Assembly (NCBI GenBank): GCA_007133195.1
Contig: SLNH01000048.1
Coordinates: 1 to 59,161, forward strand
Length of the DNA stretch: 59,161 bases
Source of the DNA: Nannocystineae bacterium
GTDB taxonomy: Bacteria > Myxococcota_A > Polyangia > Haliangiales > Haliangiaceae
Reading direction: 5' to 3'
Below are positions 28,453 through 49,074 of the stretch, one piece after another (position 1 is the stretch's first letter; each line of letters opens with the position of its first letter). The translations under genes were made by a program, and so were the position numbers. The notes under the pieces are model-generated. The model made no database searches. It saw only the letters and a list, made by a program, of their open reading frames with translations, and was not told where the DNA came from.

Positions 28453-29010
28453 ATGCTCGCCCGCGGCCTACTTGCCATCGCGAGCGCTGCCCCTCGAATC
28501 CTTTTGTGGGCGGCGCACTCGGCCTTCGTCGCCATGGTCACGGCTTCGTGGATCGCCGCGAAGCCGGTGAGCGCCGAAGTTCCGCCAGGCGAGGCGCTGG
28601 GGACCCCGCGCACGACGGCGGCGGAAAATCAAAAATCCGGCTCCGCGGAGGGCGGAGCGTGGATGGACGAGGGCGGGCCCGCGCTCGGCCCGCCGGCCCC
28701 GCGGTCGGCGGGCCCCTCCTCCGGTGATCCGGAGGCGCGCGGGGATGCGGCGACGACTGGCCGCGTGCGGATCAACATCAACCGCGCGCCTGCGCGAAAG
28801 CTCCAGCGCCTACCCGGGATCGGCGAGGCCATTTCCGAACGCATCGTCACCTGGCGGGAGCAAAACCAGGACTTTGGCCGCATCGCGGACCTGCGGCGCG
28901 TGCCCGGTATCGGTCCCAAGACGCTGGCGGACCTTCGGCCCTACATCGCCGTCTCCGGGCCCACGACGTCGCCCGCTCCCGACAGTGACGGCTCCGGCGC
29001 CCCTCGATAA
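28453..29010 (+). CDS. comEA: ComEA-like helix-hairpin-helix DNA-binding protein
   Basis: 185 residues. An N-terminal membrane helix (ILLWAAHSAFVAMVTASWIAA, ~16-36) is followed by a ~65-residue disordered linker and a ComEA-type double HhH domain (~105-165): INRAPARKLQRLPGIGEAISERIV, then IADLRRVPGIGPKTLADLRPY. This is the ComEA pattern (N-x-A, LPGIG, RVPGIG). Family members bind DNA on the outer face of the inner membrane during competence. It starts 18 bp after the 82-residue gene and is read from the same sigma-54 promoter. Confidence 0.9.
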   Translation: MLARGLLAIASAAPRILLWAAHSAFVAMVTASWIAAKPVSAEVPPGEALGTPRTTAAENQKSGSAEGGAWMDEGGPALGPPAPRSAGPSSGDPEARGDAATTGRVRININRAPARKLQRLPGIGEAISERIVTWREQNQDFGRIADLRRVPGIGPKTLADLRPYIAVSGPTTSPAPDSDGSGAPR

Positions 29011-40460: not shown

Positions 40461-42982
<2,522 letters not shown>

Positions 42983-44161: not shown

Positions 44162-44767
44162 TTGAGCAGGCTGCACACGATATTCGTAATTCTGGCCACG
44201 ATCGCAGCGGCGGCCTGTGGGCGCGAGCCTTTGGACTGGGCCTGCCCGGACGTCGGGCCAGGGGAGCTCATTTTAACGGAGATACGCGGTCCGCAAACGG
44301 GCTCCGAGGCGCAGGACTGGTTCGAGTTCTACAACGCCAGCGGGCAGGAGCTCGATCTGTACGGCGCGCAGTTCTTCATCCGCCGGCTCGACGGTAGCAA
44401 TCCCCGCACGATCATCGTGCGCGAGCCGGGTGTCATGGTGGAGGCGGGGGACTATTTCGTGCTCGGCAACGCGGCGCCTGGGGACGAGCCCGATCACGTC
44501 GATTACGGGTACGCCCGGGACTTCCCCGTAGACCTCTACGACACCGCCGCCATCGACATCACAGCTTGCGGCGAGCAGATCGACCAAGTGGTCTACCGCA
44601 ACCTGCCCCGCGAAGGCACGCTGTCGTTCGACGGCGCTCGCGAGCCCAGCGGCGAAGCCAACAGCGACGCGGCGCTGTGGTGCCCCGATGTCCAGCTAAG
44701 CGGCGACAGCGGGCTCGTCGGCACGCCCGGCGCCCCGAACCGAGAATGCCCGGCGGACGACGACTGA
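44162..44767 (+). CDS. lamin-tail-domain (LTD) lipoprotein
   Basis: 201 residues from TTG 44162. A lipoprotein signal (TIFVILATIAAAAC, Cys19) precedes one LTD: GELILTEIRGPQTGSEAQDWFEFYNASGQELDLYGAQFF, then VMVEAGDYFVLGNAAPG and the closing GTPGAPNREC. The EIxxxPxxG, WxEFYN and VLGN motifs are the Ig-like LTD signature found in bacterial surface proteins and nuclear lamins. Ca2+/surface roles are unknown. It is first of three same-strand genes. Confidence 0.85.
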   Translation: MSRLHTIFVILATIAAAACGREPLDWACPDVGPGELILTEIRGPQTGSEAQDWFEFYNASGQELDLYGAQFFIRRLDGSNPRTIIVREPGVMVEAGDYFVLGNAAPGDEPDHVDYGYARDFPVDLYDTAAIDITACGEQIDQVVYRNLPREGTLSFDGAREPSGEANSDAALWCPDVQLSGDSGLVGTPGAPNRECPADDD

Positions 44768-44904
44768 GCCATGCCGACCACAGCCCCGCGCAAAGGCACA
44801 TTCGAGGCCCAGGCGGCCCGGCGTGCTGGGCGCCCCGAGCAATTTGCGCTGTCCGAGACGCCCCATATCGACCGGCCGGCGACGGCCGCCACCGGAGAGA
44901 GATT

Positions 44905-46878
44905 ATGAACGCTCCTCGCTTATCCTGCCGTATCGCGCCGCCCGCCCTCGCGCTGTCGCTCGCGTCGTTCGCCTGCTCGGGTGACGACAGCGGCGGGGGC
45001 GGCGCCGGGTCGTGCGAAGCCGACATGACTCCAGGGGACATCGTGATCAGCGAGGTGATGGCGAACCCCATCGGCCAGAGCGCGGGCAAAGAGTGGATCG
45101 AAATCTACAACGCCTCCTCGGACACCATCCAACTCGAGGGAGCGCTCCTCGTAAACGGCGAGGGTACAGGCGCGGCCACCCACGAGATGGGGGAGCTCGA
45201 GATCGGCGCGGGCGAATACGCGGTGCTCGGCAACGTGGAGCCCGACTTCATGGAGGACTACCACGACTACGCCTACGAAGATGATCTCGGCTCGCTACCC
45301 AACGGCGGTGGCCACATCTCGATCGAGTGCGACGGCGACCTCGTGGACTCGGCGAACTACCCCGAGATGAGCGAAGGCGTGGCCATGGGCTTCGACGGTG
45401 CGCTCGAGCCCGACCACACCCTCAACACGGATCCCGACAACTGGTGCGAGGCCGAACAGGAGTTCGACGCCGACGGCTCGCTCGGCACACCCGGGGAACG
45501 GAACGACGCCTGCGGCGCGGTGTCTCAGGACACCTGCAACGACAATGGGGAGCAGCGCGAGGTCATCGAGCCCGAGGAGGGTGACCTCGTGATCTCCGAG
45601 GTCATGGCTCAAACAGTCCCCGAGGTGAATTACCTCGAGGGCGAGTGGTTCGCCGTGTACGTGGCGGCCGAAGGCGGCGTGGATCTCAACGGCCTCCAGA
45701 TCGGCCGCTACTTTCCCGACAGCGATCCGGATCAAGAGCCCGGACCGCGAGAAGTCGGCCACACGCTAGGATCCGCCGCTTGTCTCCACCACGACGAGGG
45801 GAGCCACGTCCTCTTCGCTCGCAGCGAGGACCCCGAGCTAAACGGAGGCCTGCCCGACGTCGACTATATCTTCAATCTGGACCATCCCTCGGCGGGCCTG
45901 GCCTCCGACCACGGTGGGGTTTACGTCGGTTTTGGCATCGACGATGTCGAGGTCGCAACCGACGACATCCTCGACTATGTCACGTGGGAGCGGCCGTGGC
46001 GCTCGGGATGCGGAGCGGGGCACAACTACTGCGGCGCGTCCATCGTCCTCGATCCGAGTCACCTAAACACCGAGGCCAACAAGGACCCGAGCAACTGGTG
46101 CCACTCCGCCGATCGATTCTCCGAGCACGGCCGCGGCACGCCAGGAGAGCAAAACGCCGCGTGCTTCGCCGGTGGCCCTTGCCTCGATCCTGACAGCGGC
46201 GAGATTCGGGCCGCCCAATCCCCCGAAGAGGGTGATCTCGTCATTACGGAGGTGCTTCCCAACACGCAGGACGGCGTTAGCGGTCGCCAAGGTGGCTGGT
46301 TCGAAGTGCTTATCAAGGACGACGCTGATCTTAATGCCCTCCAGATCGGCCGATACGACCCCGAGGAGGACCACGCCGAGGAAATTCAGAACACGCTCGC
46401 GTTCAGGGAGTGCCTCTTCCACGAAGGGGGAAGCCACATCTTGTTCGCCCTCGAGACGGACCAGGGCGTCTTTGATCCGATTTACGGAACGGATATCGAG
46501 GTTGACTACCGATTCAATTTCCGAGGTGCCGGCGGCTTCCAGCTCACGCAGAGCGATGATGGCTTGTTTCTCACCTTCGACAACGATCGCGAAGACCTGG
46601 CCGAGCACATGACCTGGGAGAGCTCAGAGAGCGGGCTGAGCCTGAGCCTGGACTGTGGCGAGGACGATACCGAACCGGAGTGCAGCTCCGACCTCGACAA
46701 CTGGTGCGAGGCCGACGAACTCAAGGTCGAGGATGAGCTCGAGCCGTACTTCTGCTGTGGTGGGGATGGCGAGGACGAGTGCCCCGACCCAGATGACGGC
46801 AGCGGCGAGGGGTGCAGCTTCGGCACGCCGGGCGAGGAGAACCCCGCGTGTGAGGATGATGAGGATGAAAACGGCTAG
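44905..46878 (+). CDS. lipoprotein with three lamin-tail domains
   Basis: 657 residues from ATG 44905, behind GGAGAG. After a lipoprotein signal (PPALALSLASFAC) come three LTD-type modules: at ~45-200 (GDIVISEVMANP, KEWIEIYNASSD, YAVLGNVEP), at ~220-425 (GDLVISEVMAQ, GEWFAVYVAAEG, HVLFARSE) and at ~435-640 (GDLVITEVLPN, GGWFEVLIKDD, HILFALET). Each ends with NWC and GTPGxxN. The first module is closest to typical LTD, the last two are more divergent and share DLNxLQIGRY. C-terminal Asp/Glu tail. It is followed after 39 bp by the HhH-barrel gene. It is expected on the cell surface. Confidence 0.85.
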   Translation: MNAPRLSCRIAPPALALSLASFACSGDDSGGGGAGSCEADMTPGDIVISEVMANPIGQSAGKEWIEIYNASSDTIQLEGALLVNGEGTGAATHEMGELEIGAGEYAVLGNVEPDFMEDYHDYAYEDDLGSLPNGGGHISIECDGDLVDSANYPEMSEGVAMGFDGALEPDHTLNTDPDNWCEAEQEFDADGSLGTPGERNDACGAVSQDTCNDNGEQREVIEPEEGDLVISEVMAQTVPEVNYLEGEWFAVYVAAEGGVDLNGLQIGRYFPDSDPDQEPGPREVGHTLGSAACLHHDEGSHVLFARSEDPELNGGLPDVDYIFNLDHPSAGLASDHGGVYVGFGIDDVEVATDDILDYVTWERPWRSGCGAGHNYCGASIVLDPSHLNTEANKDPSNWCHSADRFSEHGRGTPGEQNAACFAGGPCLDPDSGEIRAAQSPEEGDLVITEVLPNTQDGVSGRQGGWFEVLIKDDADLNALQIGRYDPEEDHAEEIQNTLAFRECLFHEGGSHILFALETDQGVFDPIYGTDIEVDYRFNFRGAGGFQLTQSDDGLFLTFDNDREDLAEHMTWESSESGLSLSLDCGEDDTEPECSSDLDNWCEADELKVEDELEPYFCCGGDGEDECPDPDDGSGEGCSFGTPGEENPACEDDEDENG

Positions 46879-46917
46879 GCGCGCTCCCAACCCGTGGGCT
46901 GTTCTGGAGGACGTGAC

Positions 46918-49074
46918 GTGCGCCGACTGATCGCTGGCGTCTTCGCCGCGGGGATGCTGTGGGCGACGACCGCCGACGCCGCGCGCTACGAGACGTTCAT
47001 CGAGATCGAGGCCGAGGAAGACCTCTACGATCTGTTCGCGGCCGACGAGATCAGCGAAGACACCTTCGACACGCTCATCGAGCTTTATCAGCGCGGCGTC
47101 GATCTCAACGAGGCCTCGCGCGAGGAGCTCTACACGCTTCCGAACCTCACCTATGACGAAGTGGACGCGATCCTCGATTACCGGGACGAGGCGGCGCACA
47201 TCGACGATCCCGCCGCGCTCGTGACAAGCGGCATCATCTCCCAGCGCAAGCTCGTGGCGATGGCGCCGTTTTTGATCGTCCGATCTCGCGACGTCGAGCG
47301 CTACGATACGACCGGCTGGGTCCGAATGCCCACCCGGTGGAGTCCCCTAGACCGGGGCATCCCTCCGACGTCGCTGCGCGCCCGCGTCGATACTCTCGAC
47401 CACCTCACCGTCGGCGTTGCGGCGGCCCTGATGCGCCAGCGCCTAGGGAGCGTGGCCTACGATCCCAACCGCGGAGCGCTGTCGGCCGAGTCGCCGTCCC
47501 CCGGCCTCGAGGTGCCCAAGGTTTACGCGGCGTGGGACACGCCCGAATACGAGCTGATCGCCGGCACCTACCGCATCGGTTTCGGGCAGCGCCTCACCTT
47601 CGACAACACCTCGCAGCTCACGCCCCACGGGATCTACGCCGACGACGAGCTTTCCCGGGTGACCCAGCTCACCCGCGAATGCAAGGAGTCGGCGGGCGAG
47701 CTGGACGCTTCGCCGTGCACGGGCGATGCGCGCTACCGTCGCGTGACGCCCGATTTTCGCTGGCGCACCGGCCTCATGGGCGTCGCCGGCGGGCTCAAGG
47801 ACGTCGAGGTCGGCGAGGGGACCGCCCAGCTCTATGCGTTCGCGTCGCACCAGCCCCACTCGATCTATCAATACCAATTTTTCGACCGCGACGAGTGCGA
47901 CGATCCCGGCGAGTGCTCGGCGCCCAGCATCTTCGTGCGCGACTCGGACGAGCCGCTCGCGCCCACGTCGACGCACTCGTTTCAAACCCTGCCGAACATG
48001 TACACCGAGTCGACGCTGGGCGCGAACGCGACGTATCAGTTCTCGCAAGGACGGCACGTGGGCGTAACCGGCTACGGTTCCACGATTCGCTGGCTCGTGG
48101 ACGACATGAATCTGGACTTTCAAGACTGGGCGCGCGTCCCCTACGGCGGACCGTTCGGGGCCGTGGGCATCGACGGCGGCTACAGCCTCGGCTCGCTGAA
48201 CCTGTTCGGCGAGGTGACGCGCAGCTTCGACTCGATGAACAGCCTGGAGGCCGTGGACGAAGGTGGGGGCGGGTTCGGGGCGCTCGTCCGCGCCGTGCAC
48301 ACCTGGGACGATCACGAGCTCGAGTCGTCGCTGCGCTACTACGATACGGACTTCGCCAACCCCCACGCGCGCGGCATTTCGGCTGCGACCCGCTACGACG
48401 GACTGCGCGCCCGGGACGAGATGGGAACCCAGCTCCGCTACTCCGGCGACCTCACTGACGACTTGAGCCTGCGCAGCACCCTCGATCTGTACTACCAGCA
48501 CTCTGAAGACATCTATCAGGGGGCCATCTTCGCGCGCACCGACTACGATCTGAGCGACCTATTCGACATCGGCTACTGGACGCAATACCGGGATCGCGAC
48601 TTCAGCCGTCGCGGGCGCAGCGAATGTTATGCAACGCGCGACGAGACCGACGAGATCACGGGCCGCCCCATCCCGTGCGCGGGGGAGCAGTTCCGAAACG
48701 CAGGAAATGTCCGCATCCGCCCACACGACGATTACACGATCACCACCCAGCTCCAGCATCAGTTCCTCGACAGTCGCCGCTACGACGACCAGTTCCGCCA
48801 GGACGTCTCCACCTGGCTTACGCTCACCGCCCGCCCGCGAGACGATCTCCGCCTCAGCCTGCGCAGCCGCTACCTGTTCGAGGATTTGCACAACAACGCG
48901 TCTCGCGAGCAGTCGTTTTGGAACTACGTCGACGTCACCTACGGCGTCGCCGAGGGACACGATCTGCGCATGCGTTACGACCTGCTCACCTATTTGGACG
49001 AACGCGAATCGTCGAACCTCCAGGAGCCAAGTCCCGAGCACTGGGTATGGCTCGAGCTCCATTCGCGCTTTTAA
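46918..49074 (+). CDS. HhH-domain outer-membrane beta-barrel protein
   Basis: 718 residues from GTG 46918 (GGAGG just upstream); a signal peptide ends TTADAARYE. Residues ~58-120 form a ComEA-like helix-hairpin-helix module (GVDLNEASREELYTLPNLTYDEVDAILDYRDEA, then SGIISQRKLVAM). The remaining ~590 residues alternate short beta strands with Tyr/Arg/Asp-rich turns (GTYRIGFGQRLTFDNTS, YDLLTYLDERESS) and end HWVWLELHSRF, with a terminal Phe like Omp signatures. It resembles large HhH/barrel proteins known from Bacteroidetes. The HhH suggests DNA binding at the outer membrane; that is inference. Confidence 0.8.
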   Translation: MRRLIAGVFAAGMLWATTADAARYETFIEIEAEEDLYDLFAADEISEDTFDTLIELYQRGVDLNEASREELYTLPNLTYDEVDAILDYRDEAAHIDDPAALVTSGIISQRKLVAMAPFLIVRSRDVERYDTTGWVRMPTRWSPLDRGIPPTSLRARVDTLDHLTVGVAAALMRQRLGSVAYDPNRGALSAESPSPGLEVPKVYAAWDTPEYELIAGTYRIGFGQRLTFDNTSQLTPHGIYADDELSRVTQLTRECKESAGELDASPCTGDARYRRVTPDFRWRTGLMGVAGGLKDVEVGEGTAQLYAFASHQPHSIYQYQFFDRDECDDPGECSAPSIFVRDSDEPLAPTSTHSFQTLPNMYTESTLGANATYQFSQGRHVGVTGYGSTIRWLVDDMNLDFQDWARVPYGGPFGAVGIDGGYSLGSLNLFGEVTRSFDSMNSLEAVDEGGGGFGALVRAVHTWDDHELESSLRYYDTDFANPHARGISAATRYDGLRARDEMGTQLRYSGDLTDDLSLRSTLDLYYQHSEDIYQGAIFARTDYDLSDLFDIGYWTQYRDRDFSRRGRSECYATRDETDEITGRPIPCAGEQFRNAGNVRIRPHDDYTITTQLQHQFLDSRRYDDQFRQDVSTWLTLTARPRDDLRLSLRSRYLFEDLHNNASREQSFWNYVDVTYGVAEGHDLRMRYDLLTYLDERESSNLQEPSPEHWVWLELHSRF

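Follow-up and report, generated by a model that had tools for sequence, protein, structure and literature searches.

The window analysed here, a stretch of 59,161 nucleotides from contig SLNH01000048.1 of a Nannocystineae bacterium (assembly GCA_007133195.1), carries a same-strand block of three open reading frames (genes A, B and C; Table 1), which an earlier note, made from the letters alone, had described as a one-LTD lipoprotein, a three-LTD lipoprotein and a 718-residue protein, a description that the ORFs confirm. A desaturase-like gene and a SnoaL-like gene, both assigned by eye, flank the block on the opposite strand, so that the trio stands alone. The window also encodes, on the reverse strand (40461-42977), a catalase-peroxidase-like protein with an apparent lipoprotein signal, which is possibly exported.

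Table 1. Genes, modules and intergenic gaps of the LTD-barrel locus (positions in the window)
Feature	Position	Strand	Basis or remark
Gene A, one-LTD lipoprotein	44162..44767	+	201 aa, TTG start; ORF and translation
LTD module of gene A	44258..44596	+	Pfam PF00932 match placed on the DNA
Gap A-B, site of the ~380-aa SNase lipoprotein gene in relatives	44768..44904	+	
Gene B, three-LTD lipoprotein	44905..46878	+	657 aa
LTD module 1 of gene B	45028..45360	+	Pfam match placed on the DNA
LTD module 2 of gene B	45580..46155	+	Motif positions, GDLVISEV ... NWC...GTPGEQN; beta-rich domain in the model
LTD module 3 of gene B	46231..46842	+	Motif positions, GDLVITEV ... NWC...GTPGEEN; beta-rich domain in the model
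Short gap B-C, site of the ~160-aa SNase lipoprotein gene in relatives	46879..46917	+	
Gene C, HhH and predicted outer-membrane beta-barrel	46918..49074	+	718 aa; GGAGG ahead of the GTG start; signal peptide; last residue Phe
Acidic, degenerate ComEA-like HhH module, predicted periplasmic side	47014..47271	+	Model helices 32-117; ComEA 8dss profile match
Predicted beta-barrel, ~24-25 strands, conserved lumen-side arginines	47311..49068	+	AlphaFold2, structure matches, charge survey

Genes A and B both encode a lipobox (...IAAAAC in A and ...SFAC in B, the ATG of the latter being preceded by GGAGAGAG), and the LTD proteins are lipoproteins across the relatives as well. Gene B exceeds the cut-off of the Pfam LTD model (PF00932; 56.9 bits against 34.3), scores 388 bits against the LTD3 profile, and is modelled by AlphaFold2 (pLDDT 83) as beta-rich modules whose best solved match in Foldseek is the Ig domain of lamin A/C (1ifr; TM 0.72 by target length). 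Gene A matches PF00932 below the curated cut-off (E 2.8e-4, 21.6 bits) and gives 206 bits against the family-specific LTD1 profile. Therefore, the assignment of LTD modules to both lipoproteins stands, through a match above the cut-off with a lamin Ig fold for B and a match below it for A. The NWC...GTPGxxN ending that every module was said to share is present three times in gene B, and was never found in 20,000 shuffles of that gene, but gene A reads LWC...GTPGxxN, once.

In gene C, the GTG at 46918, which has a good ribosome-binding site, gives exactly the 718 residues claimed, and its N-terminal module is homologous to ComEA (profile against 8dss, E 1.8e-7), with Pfam HHH_3 falling just under its cut-off (E 8.8e-6, residues 66-127 of a longer ORF of the gene) and TIGR01259 reaching only 13.7 bits against a cut-off of 152. 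Single-sequence matches of this helical region to designed TPR proteins in the PDB were judged spurious, because the family profile finds ComEA and EEPD1 instead. Both hairpins of the family lack the GhG motif and read PN[LV][TSD] and GVLS-like instead of PGIG, while the net charge of the HhH core is -4 in the family median and -9 in the window, and that of the whole stretch before the barrel is -13 and -20, respectively. For comparison, the window encodes, on the forward strand at 28453-29010 and about 15 kb from the trio, a secreted, stand-alone ComEA-like protein of the canonical kind, which has GIG hairpins, a basic charge of +6, an HHH_3 score of 68 bits and matches to TIGR00426 and TIGR01259. 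Judged by its residues, the HhH module of gene C is a doubtful candidate for classical DNA binding, since the canonical glycines are missing and the module is acidic; thus, of the DNA-binding ComEA-like module that had been proposed, the ComEA homology holds, but the DNA contacts appear to be partly lost.

The body of gene C is predicted to be a very large outer-membrane beta-barrel. Its AlphaFold2 model, built with 67 aligned relatives (pLDDT 90.9, pTM 0.88), places a helical HhH module at residues 32-117 before about 24-25 long strands that end on a C-terminal Phe, and a predicted closed barrel, a signal peptide and a terminal aromatic residue are thus all present. The top Foldseek matches are FimD/PapC ushers, MtrB, TonB-dependent receptors and porins, and VIA-align gives Z values of about 15-16 to AlgE, FimD and OprD-type porins, with several ushers superposing at 3.6-4.0 A over about 370 residues. 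The model speaks against a globular enzyme and for the beta-barrel-like body that had been read from the sequence; as no family stands out in the VIA ranking, we assign the barrel to no fold family and claim a large barrel, nothing finer. The likeness to ushers, MtrB and AlgE/OprD porins, which are also large outer-membrane barrels, is one of fold only, at 8-14% sequence identity and with no Pfam usher match for gene C, and the trio differs from the chaperone-usher and MtrB systems in lacking chaperone, pilin or cytochrome partner genes and in having LTD and, in relatives, nuclease genes as neighbours. With strand residues divided according to hydrophobic parity, the net charge facing the lumen has a family median of +9, the window barrel being the lowest of the family at +1, and K200, R457, R472, R504, R518, R539, R648 and R685 are near-invariant on that side. 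An acidic HhH domain that plugs, or docks at, a basic channel would be consistent with these charges.

Of 56 relatives, 29 have an orthologue of gene C, and 80 loci were fetched from genomes of Myxococcota type, among them those of Nannocystis, Enhygromyxa, Plesiocystis and Paraliomyxa. The gene order in most Myxococcota relatives is LTD1 - SNase - LTD3 - SNase - HhH-barrel, often with overlapping genes, so that the operon holds two genes more than the window, namely a lipoprotein of about 380 residues after LTD1 and one of about 160 residues after LTD3. Both are staphylococcal-nuclease homologues (PF00565, 9.2e-15 and 8.3e-20) and align with the S. aureus nuclease at the catalytic positions R35, D40, E43 and R87. 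In a few of the genes for the small SNase (SN4; L091, L095, L115, L118 and L130) an Asn, seen by eye, takes the D40 position, and one member of the SNase pair may have lost activity there. All four partners score in 41 of the 52 loci with at least 6.5 kb upstream, about 38 of them with a clearly separate LTD1 gene; among the 74 relatives with at least 900 bp upstream of the barrel, LTD3 adjoins it in 68 and an SNase is present in 66. The trio's genes are therefore conserved neighbours, as had been supposed, although the expected spread across Myxococcota and Bacteroidota was borne out for the former only: 84,980 species genomes, scanned with a pattern that finds fairly close relatives only, gave just records labelled Myxococcota, the old 'Deltaproteobacteria/Proteobacteria' or unnamed bacterium, and none labelled Bacteroidota.

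Set against this operon, the window trio is a reduced, nuclease-less form: the barrel and LTD genes adjoin on one strand as in relatives, and the two SNase genes are absent. Three-frame translation of the A-B gap revealed no SNase remnants, and no SNase match was seen anywhere in the window genome (99.2% complete), which rules out relocation of the genes. The barrel phylogeny groups the window with L064 and L066 as its sister clade (support 0.93); as these two retain the full operon, the nucleases were lost on the window lineage and the loss is derived. L089 and L117, placed elsewhere in the tree, also lack a local SNase. Such a loss, with both nucleases kept in the sister clade, together with the lowest lumen charge of the family, could mean that the trio is drifting without current function in this genome. 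We regard such decay as very unlikely, because the three ORFs are intact and retain signal sequences and family-invariant residues at the 40-49% identity that separates the orthologues, and long ORFs retained over that divergence point to selection.

Other genes of the window genome were surveyed as well. A lipoprotein on another contig (C319; L146, ~40500-40950, reverse strand) fuses a ComEC-like metallo-beta-lactamase (MBL) domain to HhH, and could be a secreted nuclease that supplies the missing activity. The PLD matches examined in this genome are cardiolipin-synthase-like and helicase-type proteins, not NucT-like lipoproteins. Two more secreted LTD proteins (L061 10709-11836 on C467 and L062 10429-12027 on C28) have neither barrels nor recognised nucleases adjacent.

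The nature of the nuclease was found to change in more distant families. A phylum-wide profile search, among whose weak matches (E ~1e-5) many were ordinary ComEA-like HhH proteins and were not counted as barrels, yielded 20 such loci. At 17 of them both an LTD gene and a nuclease gene lie no more than about 4 kb from the barrel and in its orientation. The nucleases are SNases at seven loci, NucT-like proteins of the PLD-HKD class at seven and proteins resembling the ComEC C-terminal domain (ComEC-CTD), of the MBL class, at four, one locus having both PLD and MBL. Pfam confirmed PLDc_2 and SNase among these partners and placed LTD three times in each of two LTD partners scanned, and NCBIfam ranked NucT first for the PLD partners and ComEC_Rec2 for the MBL partners, all below the equivalog cut-offs. 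By parsimony, the nuclease class switched at least three times on the barrel tree. At L151, in one relative, a single barrel is surrounded by an LTD gene, a PLD nuclease and an MBL nuclease, a state that may be a stage in the replacement of one nuclease by another. With only 0-4 SNase domains in each of the ten genomes checked, chance is a negligible explanation of the barrel-SNase adjacency. That unrelated nuclease folds replace one another beside a barrel and an LTD protein that stay constant is the best argument for a module acting on nucleic acid, and the nuclease genes within the relatives' operon (66 of the 79 loci in the first set and 17 of the 20 in the second) strongly favour the DNA-handling role that the earlier note had suggested.

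Based on these findings, we propose that the trio is the nuclease-less version of a module for processing nucleic acid at the cell surface with passage of the fragments through the barrel, a reading that we consider slightly better than an even bet. Its core, a myxobacterial envelope module, would consist of the giant outer-membrane barrel (C) and the tandem-LTD lipoproteins (A and B), and in relatives would be completed by a nuclease, lipid-anchored or secreted, that belongs to one of three unrelated folds. External DNA or RNA would be cut by the surface nucleases, nuclease and substrate being held at the barrel mouth by the LTD lipoproteins; the fragments would then cross the basic, arginine-lined lumen, with the acidic HhH module as plug or docking site at the periplasmic mouth. 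In the window genome, the nuclease may come from elsewhere, or the module may act on nucleic acid that is already degraded. Whereas the genes, their predicted folds, the conserved operon, the nuclease exchange and the loss in this genome come directly from the computations, surface exposure, physical assembly, gating, the direction of transport and the import of nucleic acid through the barrel are what we infer from this arrangement, the best fold matches, which include exporters (ushers, AlgE), being compatible with either direction. Several observations count against the processing reading: the window operon has no nuclease and its genome no SNase, the window barrel has the lowest lumen charge of the family, the HhH module seems unfit for classical DNA binding, the barrel is solitary in a few relatives (L137), and the operons showed no recognisable nucleotidase, transporter or energy partner of the TonB type. 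In its most specific form, that of a dedicated non-secretin channel of Myxococcota for DNA or oligonucleotides, in which an acidic HhH plug gates an arginine-lined barrel and LTD scaffolds assist it together with nucleases that can replace one another (SNase, PLD or ComEC-like MBL), the proposal is tentative, and we would sooner doubt it than rely on it.

The barrel might instead be an exporter or anchor that displays nucleases and LTD proteins for predation or matrix remodelling, with no import. Such secretion or display would be in line with best fold matches that include usher pores, AlgE and the MtrB conduit, with partners that are surface-type lipoproteins, and with the persistence of barrel and LTD where nucleases are lost (the window, L089 and L117), but a basic lumen suits an anionic substrate, and, to our knowledge, lipoproteins in known systems need no dedicated 24-strand channel; we therefore hold it unlikely.

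Natural transformation, in which the barrel would be a non-secretin port, HhH and nucleases would thread and trim DNA, and ComEC would take it across the inner membrane, appears similarly improbable. ComEC is present in the window genome, the canonical ComEA-like gene lies in the same window, and ComEC_Rec2 is the best-scoring model for the MBL partners, all of which such a pathway would explain, as it would the gene for a tandem-HhH ComEA-like protein (L135, 7133-7894) that immediately precedes a distant HhH-barrel gene lacking LTD and nuclease neighbours. Two SNases per operon, however, point to degradation more than to the uptake of long DNA, the hairpins of the barrel's HhH are degenerate, and the operon itself is without ComEC and ComEA. 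The locus thus shares ComEA-like HhH homology and, in some families, ComEC-CTD-like MBL partners with the ComEA/ComEC/PilQ competence system, from which it differs in that its HhH is fused to a giant barrel, degenerate and acidic; the operon also has no recognisable secretin or pilus genes. A precedent in favour of transformation comes from Riemerella anatipestifer, in which transformation depends on three proteins (RA0C_RS02645/RS04915/RS04920) unlike any known machinery, namely a predicted outer-membrane barrel, a protein with HhH and another surface protein (PMC8459023). There, HhH and barrel are separate proteins and no LTD or nuclease is described, the likeness to gene C being one of description.

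Every domain family in the module is already known, and the operon itself was not found described: no LTD-barrel-nuclease operon appeared in the literature searched, a scope outside which preprints and most subscription papers fall. The PLD partners score best against the models of H. pylori NucT, an envelope nuclease of the PLD family, far below the equivalog cut-offs, and we know of no NucT paired with a barrel and LTD proteins. Work on H. pylori implicates NucT both in the salvage of purines and in natural transformation (PMC5714352). LTD accompanies the extracellular nuclease ExeM, where its role was described as not yet elucidated (PMC6085458). The link of LTD to surface or secreted nucleases is thus shared with ExeM/Xds, whereas the trio's relatives encode LTD and nuclease as separate proteins, the latter of the SNase, PLD or MBL type and not EEP.

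In conclusion, the operon gives bacterial lamin tail domains a concrete setting, and it is directly testable, since Nannocystis, Enhygromyxa, Plesiocystis and Paraliomyxa are cultured carriers of its complete form. The type IV pilus/PilQ route accounts for most of what is known about the entry of nucleic acid across the Gram-negative outer membrane. A phylum-wide barrel that keeps its LTD partner while exchanging nuclease folds might represent a second route across this membrane, or an unrecognised nucleic-acid-eating apparatus of predatory soil and marine bacteria.
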